Source: an uncultured Pelagibacteraceae bacterium
GTDB taxonomy: Bacteria > Pseudomonadota > Alphaproteobacteria > Pelagibacterales > Pelagibacteraceae
Direction: 5' to 3'
DNA: 64,000 nucleotides
NCBI GenBank assembly: GCA_902631535.1
Contig: CACOYX010000001.1
Location: 1-64,000 of the forward strand
In this document: in pieces, positions 5,151 through 9,736 of the stretch
Layout: the number at the start of each line of letters is the position of its first letter
Numbering within the stretch: the first letter of the stretch is position 1
Notes under the pieces: model-generated
What the model saw: only the letters and a program-made list of their open reading frames with translations
Database searches by the model: none
Told to the model about the DNA's origin: nothing
Made by a program: the position numbers and the translations under genes

Positions 5151-5199
5151 TTGCAAATGATAATCATTCGCAAATTATTGTAACTGATAATCATTATCA
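5151..5199 (+). promoter_or_regulatory. Tandem Fur-type iron boxes upstream of futA
   Basis: Two palindromes sit side by side. The first is 23 bp at 5151-5173 (ttgcaaatgataatcattcg...), symmetric except for two paired positions and the centre. The second is TGATAATCATTATCA at 5185-5199. Both contain the GATAATCATT core of the classical Fur box, and they end about 16 bp before the futA start. Fur-family repression under iron sufficiency follows from the motif and from the gene downstream; Fur itself is not in the window. Confidence 0.8.
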
Positions 5200-5215: not shown

Positions 5216-6235
5216 ATGAAAAAGTCAATAATAATTAGCTATTTATTTTTAGTTGCATTCGCAAGCAGCTTGTTCGCGAATGAGGTTAATATATTTAGCG
5301 CCAGGCATTATGACTCAGATGTTCAACTTTATGAAAAGTTCACTGCAAAAACAGGAATTAAAGTAAACGTTGTGTCTGGTAAGTCAGGTGCTTTAGAAAA
5401 AAGGATAATTGAAGAGGGAGCAGACAGTAAAGCAGATCTTTACATTACTGCAGATGCTGGAAGATTAGGTGCTTTCGAAGCAAACCTTCAGGGTGGACTA
5501 ACAAGTTCAACTATCAAAAATGCTGTTCCAAGCAATTTTAGAACATCAAAATGGACTGGTATTGCGAAGAGAGCTAGGATTGTCTACTTTGCTCCAGAAA
5601 GAGTAAGTGGTTCAGAATTATCTGGTTTAACTTATGAAAGTTTAGCTGATCCTAAATGGAAAGGTAGACTAGTAATAAGAGCCTCAAATAATATCTACAA
5701 TCAATCACTAGTAGCTTCATTAATTAAAAATAATGGAAAAGGAAAAGTAGCTGATTGGTCTAAAGGTATGGTTTCTAATATGGCAAGGTCGCCTAAAGGA
5801 AATGATAGAGCTCAAATACTAGCTGTTGCCGCAGGAGAAGCAGACATAGCAGTAGCCAATACTTATTATCTAGCTCTTATGTTGTCTGGAAAAAAAGGCC
5901 CAGAACAGCAAGCAGCTGCCAAAAAAGTAAAACCTTTTTTTCCAAATCAAGATGGAAGAGGAACTCATATGAACATTAGTGGTGCAGGACTAGTAAAAGG
6001 AGCACCGAATAAAGCTAATGCGATAAAATTAGTTGAGTTCTTATTAAGTGAGGAAGCTCAAAATCATATTGTAAATAATACTTTTGAGTATCCAATGATA
6101 AAAGGTGTGTCTCCACATCCACTTGTTGTAAATATGGGATTAGATTTTAAACAAGATCTAAAAACAAAAGTTGTTAATTACGGAAAAAGACAAGCAGATG
6201 CTTTAGAAGTAATGACAGCAGCAGGCTGGAAGTAG
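5216..6235 (+). CDS. futA: Ferric iron ABC transporter periplasmic binding protein (FutA/FbpA type)
   Basis: Captures Fe(III) in the periplasm for the AfuBC-type transporter encoded just downstream. The listed ORF begins at 5132, but that start lies inside the operator region. The ATG at 5216 has a CGAGGG ribosome-binding site and opens a clean signal peptide, 'MKKSIIISYLFLVAFASSLFA'. The mature part begins with the FutA-type 'IFSARHYDSD' segment, and a twin tyrosine in 'ANTYYLA' matches the iron-binding tyrosines of the family. 339 residues is normal. Studies of Pelagibacter iron limitation identify this type of gene (sfuC) as the iron-responsive one. It leads the iron operon. Confidence 0.93.
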   Translation: MKKSIIISYLFLVAFASSLFANEVNIFSARHYDSDVQLYEKFTAKTGIKVNVVSGKSGALEKRIIEEGADSKADLYITADAGRLGAFEANLQGGLTSSTIKNAVPSNFRTSKWTGIAKRARIVYFAPERVSGSELSGLTYESLADPKWKGRLVIRASNNIYNQSLVASLIKNNGKGKVADWSKGMVSNMARSPKGNDRAQILAVAAGEADIAVANTYYLALMLSGKKGPEQQAAAKKVKPFFPNQDGRGTHMNISGAGLVKGAPNKANAIKLVEFLLSEEAQNHIVNNTFEYPMIKGVSPHPLVVNMGLDFKQDLKTKVVNYGKRQADALEVMTAAGWK

Positions 6236-6245
6236 TTGTTAATTT

Positions 6246-6416
6246 ATGAGGCGAATAACAAAAAAAGAAATTAACTTAAATAAGTTAAAAATAGGTTGTT
6301 CGCCTTGTATGGCTGAGGCAAAAAAAATGGAACAAAAAATTTCAAATAGAAAAGTTTCAGAAATTAAAATTGAAGAAGTTAAAATGATTGTGTCTTCAAT
6401 GTTTAAAAAAGATTGA
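6246..6416 (+). CDS. 56-aa CxxC microprotein within the iron operon (not in ORF track)
   Basis: The frame starts 10 bp after the futA stop and encodes 'MRRITKKEINLNKLKIGCSPC...' ending 'SSMFKKD'. The single CSPC motif (residues 18-21) could bind metal or form a redox disulfide, and the rest is basic and predicted helical. No signal peptide is visible, so it should be cytoplasmic. The opposite-strand ORF at 6239-6430 is its shadow. It lies between the iron-binding protein and a flavodoxin, so a role in iron or redox handling is a reasonable but unproven guess. No family recognised. Confidence 0.6.
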   Translation: MRRITKKEINLNKLKIGCSPCMAEAKKMEQKISNRKVSEIKIEEVKMIVSSMFKKD

Positions 6417-6420
6417 AAGT

Positions 6421-6430
6421 TTGACGTCAA
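6421..6430 (+). promoter_or_regulatory. TTGACGTCAA palindrome / possible internal -35
   Basis: A perfect 10-bp palindrome follows the CxxC gene stop by 4 bp. Its TTGACG could serve as a -35 for an internal promoter, with weak -10 candidates near 6441-6450. The alternative is an operator half or chance. It sits immediately before the long hairpin. Confidence 0.3.
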
Positions 6431-6488
6431 TTTCCCTGGTTTAAATGCTAGCTGAATTCTACACTCCAGCCGCTTTAACCAGGGAATT
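6429..6488 (+). ncRNA. Long imperfect hairpin (candidate cis-regulatory RNA) ahead of the flavodoxin
   Basis: The RNA can fold as AATT-CCCTGGTT-AAA-GC-GCTG, a 12-nt loop, then CAGC-GC-TTT-AACCAGGG-AATT. This gives about 21 base pairs interrupted only by one- or two-base bulges. It ends 10 nt before the flavodoxin ATG. No U-tract follows, so it is not a standard intrinsic terminator. No clear Shine-Dalgarno separates it from the start codon. It could be a processing or stability element, an attenuator or a translational switch. It matches no riboswitch class I recognise. Confidence 0.6.
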
Positions 6489-6498
6489 ATAAATTCAA

Positions 6499-6948
6499 AT
6501 GAAATTAGATATACTATACGCTACACAAACTGGAAACGCAGAGGAAGTCGCGCTAAACCTTAGTTCATTAGCAAAAAATCAAGGATTTATCGTAAATATA
6601 GATGAAATGAATAATTATACAATTGATCAATTTAGAAAATTAAAAAATGTTGCAATAGTGACTTCAACATACGGTAAGGGAGAAGTTCCCGAGATGGGCG
6701 TGGAATTCTGGAAAGATCTAGAGACTTCAAAAATCAAAATTAGCAAATTAAAATACGGCTTAATTGCATTAGGGGATAGATCCCACGAAATATTTTGCGG
6801 AGCAGGTAAAGCAATCTCAAAGAAATTAGACGAACTTGATAGTAAAAAGGTGATTGAAAATTTAGAATGTGATGGTGATACTGAAGGAACTCAAGAATGG
6901 AGTGTTAAATTTTTAGATATTTTAAAATCTAAATATCAAAATGACTAA
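6499..6948 (+). CDS. Flavodoxin-like FMN protein (CysJ/CPR-domain type)
   Basis: 149 residues forming a single flavodoxin domain. The phosphate-binding loop is 'YATQTGNAEEVA' (residues 7-18), then 'TSTYGKGEVPE' (about 55-65) and 'ALGDRSHEIFCGAGK' (about 91-105), which match the FMN domains of sulfite and cytochrome P450 reductases and MioC rather than classical long-chain flavodoxin. It should be a cytoplasmic one- or two-electron carrier. It is inserted between futA and the permease and overlaps the permease by 8 bp, so it is translated with the iron transporter. A role replacing Fe-S carriers or reducing incoming Fe(III) is inferred from that position. Confidence 0.88.
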   Translation: MKLDILYATQTGNAEEVALNLSSLAKNQGFIVNIDEMNNYTIDQFRKLKNVAIVTSTYGKGEVPEMGVEFWKDLETSKIKISKLKYGLIALGDRSHEIFCGAGKAISKKLDELDSKKVIENLECDGDTEGTQEWSVKFLDILKSKYQND

Positions 6949-8557
6949 ATACAATATATGGTTCTTTAGTTCATTATTAATAGCGTCAATAGTAGCTTTT
7001 CCTATAATTACAGTTTTTTTAAGCTTTTTTAGCGATACTAGTGATTATTATACTTTACTAAAAGACACTTTTCTTTTTGAATATATTTATAACTCATTAA
7101 TCATATTATTTTTTGTCGTATTAATTACTTTTCTTTTAGGTGTATTGTCAGCTTACTTTGTGTCGTTTTATAAATTTCCTTTTTCCAATTTTTTTAGCTG
7201 GTCATTAATTTTAGCTTTTGCAGTACCAGGGTATATTTACGCATTTTCAATAATTGCTTTTTTCGAAAATTATGGAACAGCTTTTTCAATATTAACTTAT
7301 TTATTTGGAGAAGATAATTACAACCTAATTATACCTAAAATTGACGGAATTATTGGAGCAATTTTAGCAATTTCTTTCTCACTTTTTCCGTATGTATATG
7401 TTTTAACACGGGCCTCGTTTCATTATCAGTCTAATAATTATATTGAGGTTGGAAAAAATTTAGGGCTTTCATCAAAAGAGTCTTTTTTTAAAATAATTTT
7501 ACCTTCAGCAAGACCAGCAATATTCGCTGGACTTGCGCTTGTTTCGATGGAGTGTTTATCAGATTTTGGTACAGTATCTTTTTTTAGCGTAAACACTTTA
7601 ACTACAGGAATTTACAATTCTTGGTTATCTTTTGATGATTTAAATACAGCAAATCAAATATCTTTTATATTGTTACTATTTATACTTTTTTTATTATCTT
7701 TAGAAATTTACTCGAGAAAAGAGGCTAGATACCATCAACCTGGCAGAGGGTTTAAACCTATTACTAAAATAAAATTAAGTGGAAAAAAAGCCTTTTTACC
7801 ATTTATTGTCTGTACATTAATATTATTTGTAAGCTTTGTATTTCCAGTATCTCAAATGATTTATTGGACAATTAAATTTCCTAAATATTTTCAGGATATA
7901 AATATTATAAAAATTAACATAAATACTTTACTCTTAGTATTGCTGGCAAGTATATCTATAGTTATCATTTCTCTTTTTATTAATTATGGAAGCCGTATCT
8001 CAAAAAGTAAAATTTTAACGTATCTAACAAACTTTTCAATTTCCGGATATGCAATACCAGGAGTAATTCTTGCAGTAGCTTTTATAACTTTTTTTTCTAA
8101 TGCAAGCGATTTTCTCTCTGAAAATTTTGGATTTGAAAGCTCTAAAGGTATTTTTATTGGTTCTATTTTAGGATTAATTTTAGCTTATTTTATAAGATTT
8201 TTCTCACTGTCTTTTAATGGAATTAAATCTAGCTATGAAAAAATTAATAATTCAATTGATGAAAGTGCTTATCTTCTGGGATACTCAAAAGTTAAAACTT
8301 TTTTAAAAATTCATGTCCCTTACTTAAAAATAAATATTATTTTAATAATGCTTCTTATAGCATTAGAGGTAATAAAAGAATTACCGATTACTTTAATATT
8401 GAGGCCTTTTAATTTCGAAACATTTGCCACACAAGTATATATTTATGCTTCACAAGATTTACTTGAAGCTGCAGCCTTACCATCTCTTTTTCTTATATTT
8501 TGGTCAACAATATTAATACTACTATCATCTAAATATATACTTTCTAATAAAAACTAA
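6941..8557 (+). CDS. afuB: Ferric iron ABC transporter permease (FbpB/AfuB type)
   Basis: 538 residues with about 12 membrane helices arranged as two homologous halves, as in FbpB/SfuB proteins. Each half carries an EAA-like coupling loop, 'EVGKNLGLSSKESFFKIILP' in the first and 'ESAYLLGYSKVKTFLKIHVP' in the second. It forms the inner-membrane channel for Fe(III) delivered by FutA. The start overlaps the flavodoxin end by 8 bp and the ATPase gene follows after 12 bp, so the genes form one operon under the tandem Fur boxes. Length is normal. Confidence 0.92.
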   Translation: MTKYNIWFFSSLLIASIVAFPIITVFLSFFSDTSDYYTLLKDTFLFEYIYNSLIILFFVVLITFLLGVLSAYFVSFYKFPFSNFFSWSLILAFAVPGYIYAFSIIAFFENYGTAFSILTYLFGEDNYNLIIPKIDGIIGAILAISFSLFPYVYVLTRASFHYQSNNYIEVGKNLGLSSKESFFKIILPSARPAIFAGLALVSMECLSDFGTVSFFSVNTLTTGIYNSWLSFDDLNTANQISFILLLFILFLLSLEIYSRKEARYHQPGRGFKPITKIKLSGKKAFLPFIVCTLILFVSFVFPVSQMIYWTIKFPKYFQDINIIKININTLLLVLLASISIVIISLFINYGSRISKSKILTYLTNFSISGYAIPGVILAVAFITFFSNASDFLSENFGFESSKGIFIGSILGLILAYFIRFFSLSFNGIKSSYEKINNSIDESAYLLGYSKVKTFLKIHVPYLKINIILIMLLIALEVIKELPITLILRPFNFETFATQVYIYASQDLLEAAALPSLFLIFWSTILILLSSKYILSNKN

Positions 8558-8569
8558 TATAATTAAAAA

Positions 8570-9640
8570 ATGTTTGAGAATTTTTTTGAAATTCAAAACG
8601 GTAATTTTACCGCCAGTGAAAAAAATAAAGTAAATAATGTCAATCTAATAATTAAAGACCAGGGTGATATAATTTCATTATTAGGTCCTTCTGGTATTGG
8701 AAAAACAACCATATTAAGAACTATTGCTGGATTGCAAAAAATTTCAAAAGGAATGATTATTTTAAAAGGGAAAATTTTATCTTCAGCTAACATAAATATC
8801 GAGCCAGAGGATAGAAATATAGCTTTGTCATTTCAGGATAACTCTTTATTTCCCAATTTTAATGTAATTGATAATATTAATTTTGGAAAAAAAAGAGTAA
8901 ATGGAAATGGTTCTTTTTTAAATGCCTCAGAAATTATAGAGATATTACATATAGAGCCGATTTTAGAAAAATTTCCACATCAAATAAGCGCTGGTGAAGC
9001 ACAAAGAGTATCTTTAGCTAGATCTCTTCTTTCAAAACCGGACTTACTTCTATTAGACGAACCTTTTTCTAATATCGATCAAAATTTGAAGGATGAGATC
9101 CAAGTATCGGTAAAAAAACTATTAAAAAGAATAAATTTAACAACAATTATTGTTACCCATGATTCGTACGAAGCTTTCTCAATGGCAGATAAGTGCGGAA
9201 TAATTTTAGATCAACAGTTAAAACAATATGATGTTCCGTATAATGTTCACCATGAACCAAACTCAATTGAAGTAGCGAATTTTCTAAACAAAGGAGTTTT
9301 CATAGATGTTGAAATAATTGATAGCGAGTGTGCAGTACATAAGTTGAAACATGCAGAACTAGGTGAAATTAGGGGTAAATTATCAAATAAGCTTCCCACA
9401 GGATCTAAAGCTAGATTGCTCTTACAACCTGAAGATTTAATTCATGATGATCAAAGCAAATTAAAATTAGAGGTAGTGGATAGAAAATTTAGAGGAACAA
9501 ATTTTATATATACTTTAAAAACTAAAACGGGTGTACATTTACCTGTTTCTGTACACTCTCATCACATCCATCAGCATGAGGAGAATGAAAAATTTGGTGT
9601 TCAATCTCCGATTTATATTGACCACTTAGTATGTTTTTAA
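8570..9640 (+). CDS. afuC: Ferric iron ABC transporter ATP-binding protein (FbpC/AfuC type)
   Basis: Powers iron import through the preceding permease. The Walker A is 'GPSGIGKTT' (about residue 38), the signature loop is the variant 'ISAGEAQRVSLARSL' (about 139, SAGEAQ in place of SGGQQQ), and the Walker B is 'LLLLDEPFSNID'. A C-terminal regulatory (TOBE-like) region of about 120 residues follows and ends in a histidine-rich 'SHHIHQHEE' stretch. The length of 356 residues is usual for FbpC. It is the last gene of the iron operon, and a tRNA-Arg gene begins 19 bp later. Confidence 0.92.
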   Translation: MFENFFEIQNGNFTASEKNKVNNVNLIIKDQGDIISLLGPSGIGKTTILRTIAGLQKISKGMIILKGKILSSANINIEPEDRNIALSFQDNSLFPNFNVIDNINFGKKRVNGNGSFLNASEIIEILHIEPILEKFPHQISAGEAQRVSLARSLLSKPDLLLLDEPFSNIDQNLKDEIQVSVKKLLKRINLTTIIVTHDSYEAFSMADKCGIILDQQLKQYDVPYNVHHEPNSIEVANFLNKGVFIDVEIIDSECAVHKLKHAELGEIRGKLSNKLPTGSKARLLLQPEDLIHDDQSKLKLEVVDRKFRGTNFIYTLKTKTGVHLPVSVHSHHIHQHEENEKFGVQSPIYIDHLVCF

Positions 9641-9659
9641 GTAAATATAATATTATTTG

Positions 9660-9736
9660 GCGCCCTTAGCTCAGCTGGATAGAGCATCGGTTTTCTAAAC
9701 CGAGGGTCGTAGGTTCGAATCCTTCAGGGCGCGCCA
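9660..9736 (+). tRNA. tRNA-Arg (anticodon TCT)
   Basis: A full cloverleaf can be drawn: acceptor GCGCCCT/AGGGCGC, anticodon stem TCGGT/ACCGA around loop TTTCTAA giving anticodon TCT, T-loop TTCGAAT, discriminator G and an encoded CCA. It reads AGA codons, the favoured Arg codon in this AT-rich DNA. The dmlA-like start codon lies 9 nt after the CCA. Confidence 0.97.

Follow-up and report, generated by a model that had tools for sequence, protein, structure and literature searches.

A conserved structured RNA between the iron-binding protein and permease genes of a SAR11 fut operon

The fut operon and its internal hairpin

The window, by which we mean the entire 64,000-nucleotide stretch of DNA analysed, carries a fut iron-uptake operon in which genes for an iron-binding protein, a small basic protein, a flavodoxin, a permease and an ATPase follow one another on the plus strand (Table 1). 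Fur-box-like palindromes stand before futA in nearly all loci: the best 19-mer there matches at least 16 of 19 positions of the Fur consensus in 57 of 59 loci, while shuffled sequences reach at most 14. A tRNA-Arg (TCT) gene lies at 9660-9736, directly 3' of futC on the same strand.

A long hairpin had been predicted in what was described as the futA-flavodoxin gap. The hairpin is indeed found there, between the small gene on the futA side and the flavodoxin gene, but the gap is not empty, since most of it is taken up by the small gene, which the original prediction had overlooked. On the plus strand, positions 6410-6510 fold with -26.2 kcal/mol (z -3.7 relative to dinucleotide shuffles, 1 of 200 of which was as stable). 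In a scan of all 60-base pieces of the window, both strands included, the most stable fold was that of the hairpin piece on the minus strand (-27.6); its plus strand (-21.3) ranked 9th after neighbours were merged, with the sites above it being mostly tRNA genes. The stem had been put at about 21 base pairs; relatives support 18 (10 + 3 + 2 + 3), and the outermost AATT/AATT pairs are peculiar to the window and share bases with a single-stranded tract that is invariant. The stem does end close to the flavodoxin start codon, although the distance is 12 nt rather than 10, from the end of the hairpin proper at 6486 to the ATG at 6499. As predicted, no U-tract follows the hairpin, and it is not a normal terminator: AATTATAAATTC stands in place of a U-tract and the hairpin is missing from the terminator scan, which rules out an intrinsic terminator.

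Table 1. Coordinates of the genes and RNA features of the fut operon in the window
Feature	Position	Strand	Remarks
Fur-box-like palindromes AATGATAATCATT (5156-5168) and TGATAATCATTATCA (5185-5199)	5156..5199	+	5' of futA
futA, periplasmic iron-binding protein	5216..6235	+	PDB 2pt1 (iron transport protein), E 7e-91; Pfam SBP families
Small gene, 56 codons, basic, CxxC, MRRITKKEINLNKLKIGCSPCMAEAKKMEQKISNRKVSEIKIEEVKMIVSSMFKKD	6246..6416	+	Stop codon abuts RNA
Conserved structured RNA element	6417..6490	+	Extent of covariance-model match (R2/R3), E about 1e-20
Unpaired 5' tail TTTGACGTCAAT, invariant	6420..6431	+	Contains palindrome TTGACGTCAA
Stem P1, 5' arm TTCCCTGGTT	6432..6441	+	Changes on both sides in 8/10 P1 pairs
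Inner part	6442..6476	+	P2 AAATGC/GCTTT, P3 GCT/AGC, apical loop 6454-6467
Stem P1, 3' arm AACCAGGGAA	6477..6486	+	Covariation across relatives
Flavodoxin gene	6499..6948	+	Flavodoxin_1, E 1.7e-25; optional insertion 3' of RNA
futB, permease gene	6941..8557	+	BPD_transp_1, E 2.7e-15
futC, ATPase gene	8570..9640	+	ABC_tran, E 1.1e-26

Conservation of the stem, the tail and the inner core

The covariation that had been proposed as a check on the hairpin is present. In an alignment of 49 sequences, which was fitted to the covariance model and is hence biased towards it, 97% of the cells over the 18 pairs are paired and 8 of the 18 pairs have changes on both sides; cells with changes on both sides number 40, compared to 12.5 for shuffles and no more than 11 for controls with slid partners. 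An independent fold of the same alignment recovers the same stem, and a structure-free alignment of the first 11 sequences holds two fully compensated pairs and zero broken cells. All eight covarying pairs belong to stem P1; P2 and P3 are almost invariant, so that covariation neither proves nor disproves them.

The level of constraint was compared in pairs of loci in which the silent (four-fold degenerate) sites are saturated, with 48% identity. In these distant pairs, the tail TTTGACGTCAAT is 95.6% identical and the letters of P2 and P3, which include the inner AUGC/GCUUU core, are 96.9% identical, while P1, which covaries, is 77.7% identical, the apical loop drifts at 57.7% and the bases 3' of the hairpin are at 41.9%. 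These values indicate that selection preserves P1 as a structure, and the tail and the inner core as sequence; an invariant tail and core around a drifting loop do not describe a generic hairpin. A candidate seed in the apical loop, CTACACTC, seemed invariant in the first 11 sequences and is gone in distant members. The palindrome TTGACGTCAA was also considered as the operator of a regulon and rejected, with 0-2 sites in eleven relatives, not above a reversed-pattern control.

A compact conserved RNA in an operon with a Fur-box in front might be cut from the operon message and act in trans on other mRNAs, as RyhB does. We consider this very unlikely, because there are no signals for transcript ends, the apical loop, the usual place of a seed, drifts, and the TTGACGTCAA site in the tail is the only one in the window's genome (in a search for perfect matches to the whole palindrome).

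Searches of Rfam, riboswitch families included, gave no relevant match for the window or for 12 diverse members, even with the E threshold relaxed to 1 or 5, in line with the earlier remark that the hairpin resembles no known riboswitch, and we found no earlier account of an RNA in the SAR11 iron operon in the open-access literature, which leaves room for a description elsewhere. Taken with the covariation, comparative analysis identifies the hairpin as a real structured RNA that was previously uncatalogued.

Distribution and neighbours of the element

A covariance model built from 11 sequences finds the element in 55 of the 169 genomes of the window's genus, in exactly one copy each; futA is found in 121 of these genomes and the small gene in 94. 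With a model built from 49 sequences, matches among 347 genomes of the family are confined to the window's genus, 1 of 14 genera, and the element was not found in the 13 other genera sampled, including the Pelagibacter-like genus g5. These absences are soft, since many genomes are incomplete and the large scans used stricter filters. A search with the flavodoxin brought up the same element on five more genome contigs and in one further genome, and a pattern search found it directly 5' of futB without a flavodoxin. A reverse-strand match in L034 is the mirror of the true match, and in L051 inverted pieces of futA and futB surround the RNA, probably through misassembly.

The gene that follows the RNA is futB in 46 of 54 distinct loci and the flavodoxin gene in 8; the constant neighbour is the upstream pair of futA and the small gene. 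The flavodoxin is thus incidental to the RNA. The suggested link to flavodoxin is not supported, and a flavin- or flavodoxin-specific switch is unlikely because most loci lack the flavodoxin. In L008, L010 and L109 the flavodoxin occupies the same operon slot without the RNA, and the slot behind futA seems to be a repeated insertion point.

A new class of riboswitch is a further possibility, in which a small molecule such as iron(II), haem or flavin would bind the tail and core and control futB or the flavodoxin. A conserved, unpaired, aptamer-like core within a covarying stem, in a gap 5' of a transport gene and with no Rfam match, is what such a class might look like. However, the loci scanned show no terminator and no consistent Shine-Dalgarno sequence to mask before the next ATG, and hence no visible expression platform; both the identity of the following gene and the spacing between the RNA and its ATG vary between loci, and the element occurs in one genus and one gene context only. 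Known riboswitches and a terminator are excluded, and the evidence speaks weakly for a new riboswitch, which we regard as quite improbable.

The small gene's stop codon is where the RNA match starts in every located copy. Twenty-four diverse members of the small protein align with 18 invariant columns, among them two invariant cysteines, and homologues occur in five genera (the window's genus, g5, g9, g17 and g18). No relative above cut-off was found in Pfam, NCBIfam or PDB, nor any known RNA-binding fold; a similarity to HydF fell under the curated cut-off and was set aside. The small protein represents an unannotated family of the SAR11 fut operon. Nine loci (L080, L081, L084, L091, L093, L100, L108, L111 and L112) carry a divergent small gene (MKNKLN..CKxCNDDAK..), and in these loci an unrelated hairpin directly 3' of futA precedes the divergent gene, with none behind it.

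The small protein is a candidate reader of the RNA. If the RNA were the binding site of the basic CxxC protein encoded upstream, the two might form an autoregulatory pair that tunes the operon by iron or redox state, an arrangement that may coexist with a protective role of the hairpin. The RNA was found only together with the small gene, which itself also occurs where the RNA is lacking, the invariant unpaired letters resemble a specific recognition site, and the protein is basic and conserved, with its two cysteines. On the other hand, branches with support show no significant link between loss of the RNA and loss of the small gene (paired test, median p 0.06), the RNA is retained in L023 and L031 beside a small gene disrupted near its end, genera lacking the RNA still have the small gene, and the structure model of the protein is helical and of low confidence (pLDDT 69), with no fold known to bind RNA. 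We judge such a pair unlikely. The broader proposal of a new kind of iron- or redox-responsive pair, in which the CxxC protein or another factor would bind the tail TTTGACGTCAAT and the core and set the ratio of binding protein to transporter by iron, seems to us no more probable.

Hairpins of unrelated sequence recur in the same place. In g5, a strong hairpin of different sequence lies directly 3' of the small gene in 19 of 19 loci; 15 of these were tested against shuffles, with z from -2.5 to -7.5, and none matched the covariance model. Within the window's genus, unrelated hairpins lie directly 3' of futA in L008, L010, L121 and the L081 group. In g9 loci, where the small gene runs straight up to futB, no hairpin is present. 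The comparison indicates that the recurrent feature is a hairpin that closes off the futA segment, regardless of the next gene. The g5 hairpin loops often contain UCUCC (L153-L160, L162-L165 and L173-L179), the 3' end of the small gene in g5 holds AAGGAGGTTCCGC, and AAGGCGGATTATAA precedes futB; a pseudoknot between the loop and GGAGG, or control of a ribosome site, is possible there. Two g5 loci (L163 and L165) have a peroxiredoxin-like gene 3' of the hairpin and 5' of futB, in the slot that the flavodoxin occupies in the window.

We examined 59 loci that have futA or the small gene but not the RNA. In most of these, the small gene adjoins or overlaps futB or is missing as well; L106, L120 and L132 resemble clean deletions, and L102 resembles a decaying copy. 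On the futB tree, the RNA requires at least 25 changes of state and the small gene 12. The tree itself cannot separate gain from loss, but the constant site and the traces of deletion lead us to infer repeated loss of the RNA, with recombination.

Patchy presence of this kind, together with the palindrome TTGACGTCAA and a minus strand that folds more stably in 39 of 47 copies, could also point to a function of the DNA or of the minus strand, as an operator, an antisense RNA or a selfish hairpin element. Opposed to this are the single copy in a single place in each genome, the failure of the palindrome as a regulon site, and the unconserved 5' flank of the minus strand; no viral copies of the flavodoxin or of the RNA motif were found. 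Moreover, departures from Watson-Crick pairing comprise 29 G.U and 12 A.C on the plus strand (sequences counted, not independent events), the polarity expected if the plus-strand RNA is under selection. We consider a function of this sort the least probable of those weighed here. A REP-like hairpin or the end of an insertion sequence was also rejected, given one copy per genome (n=55), always in the fut operon. The minus strand of the element (6427-6490) has a z of -5.0 for 101 nt.

A proposed protective role and its relation to known systems

SAR11 bacteria, among the most abundant cells in the ocean, inhabit iron-poor environments and possess few transcription factors. In the reading that we favour, and consider somewhat better than an even bet, the element is an intercistronic RNA of the malE-malF type that acts through differential decay, stabilising the futA message and separating off the transporter genes, with a sequence-specific core that is probably read by a factor. 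The fut operon would be transcribed as one polycistronic message, within which the element acts in cis. After a cut downstream, the hairpin would block 3'-to-5' exonucleases, such that the futA part is preserved; the hairpin would also set the small gene apart from futB, which it otherwise abuts or overlaps, and so lower futB relative to futA. The outcome would be a shared message that yields more iron-binding protein than transporter. A protein, such as the small-gene product, a cold-shock protein or an RNase, probably recognises the invariant tail and inner core, and such a reader could make the effect dependent on iron.

Among the possibilities raised in the original prediction, unequal expression of futA and the genes after it stays the best reading, based on the covarying stem and the constant upstream futA segment. 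The protective reading is favoured as well because unrelated hairpins recur at this place and because there is no terminator: a stable hairpin lacking a U-tract stands between binding-protein and permease genes that are presumably co-transcribed. That the RNA separates the small gene from futB is suggested by the loci without it, where the two abut or overlap. The explanation is nevertheless incomplete, since protection alone would not require unpaired letters to be invariant, while those of the tail and core nearly are, and the many relatives without the element imply that its effect is optional. The more stable minus strand in most copies and the lack of a hairpin in g9 count against it.

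Measurements in a SAR11 relative agree with the protective reading, without proving it. Under iron limitation, mRNA rose 16-fold for sfuC, 10.4-fold for sfuB and 5.0-fold for sfuA, and of the three products only SfuC was observed to increase as protein (PMC2864753). RNA-level control with cold-shock proteins was proposed for the operon of this relative (Smith et al. 2010, PMC2864753).

The closest known parallel is the malE-malF type. In five E. coli ABC transport operons, hairpins without a U-tract stabilise the message, and the stabilised gene always encodes the binding protein (Dar and Sorek, PMC5927463). The SAR11 element shares the U-tract-less hairpin between binding-protein and permease genes and the conserved position, but differs in its near-invariant unpaired tail and inner core and in the intervening small gene, and its effect on decay is a proposal. 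The g5 hairpins share the operon position 3' of the small gene and the strong fold, but lie outside the covariance model and have loops that often carry UCUCC. Candidate RNAs of Ca. Pelagibacter ubique (Meyer et al. 2009, PMC2704228) were likewise detected by covariation and are bulged hairpins in intergenic gaps of SAR11; none of these motifs is described between binding-protein and permease genes, the gap listed there between sfuC and SAR11_1239 being on the opposite side of sfuC, and our element was not found in g5. In Bacillus subtilis, as cited in PMC2864753, the Fur-regulated small RNA FsrA acts with the small basic Fbp proteins, which resembles the small basic protein beside a regulatory RNA and the iron response considered here; this is an analogy only, since the SAR11 RNA sits inside the uptake operon and no sequence relation was seen. 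Finally, post-transcriptional control of the same operon had been proposed in a relative without a defined internal RNA element (Smith et al. 2010, PMC2864753). Such control becomes directly testable with an element supported by covariation, a conserved small protein and strains that naturally carry or lack the RNA.
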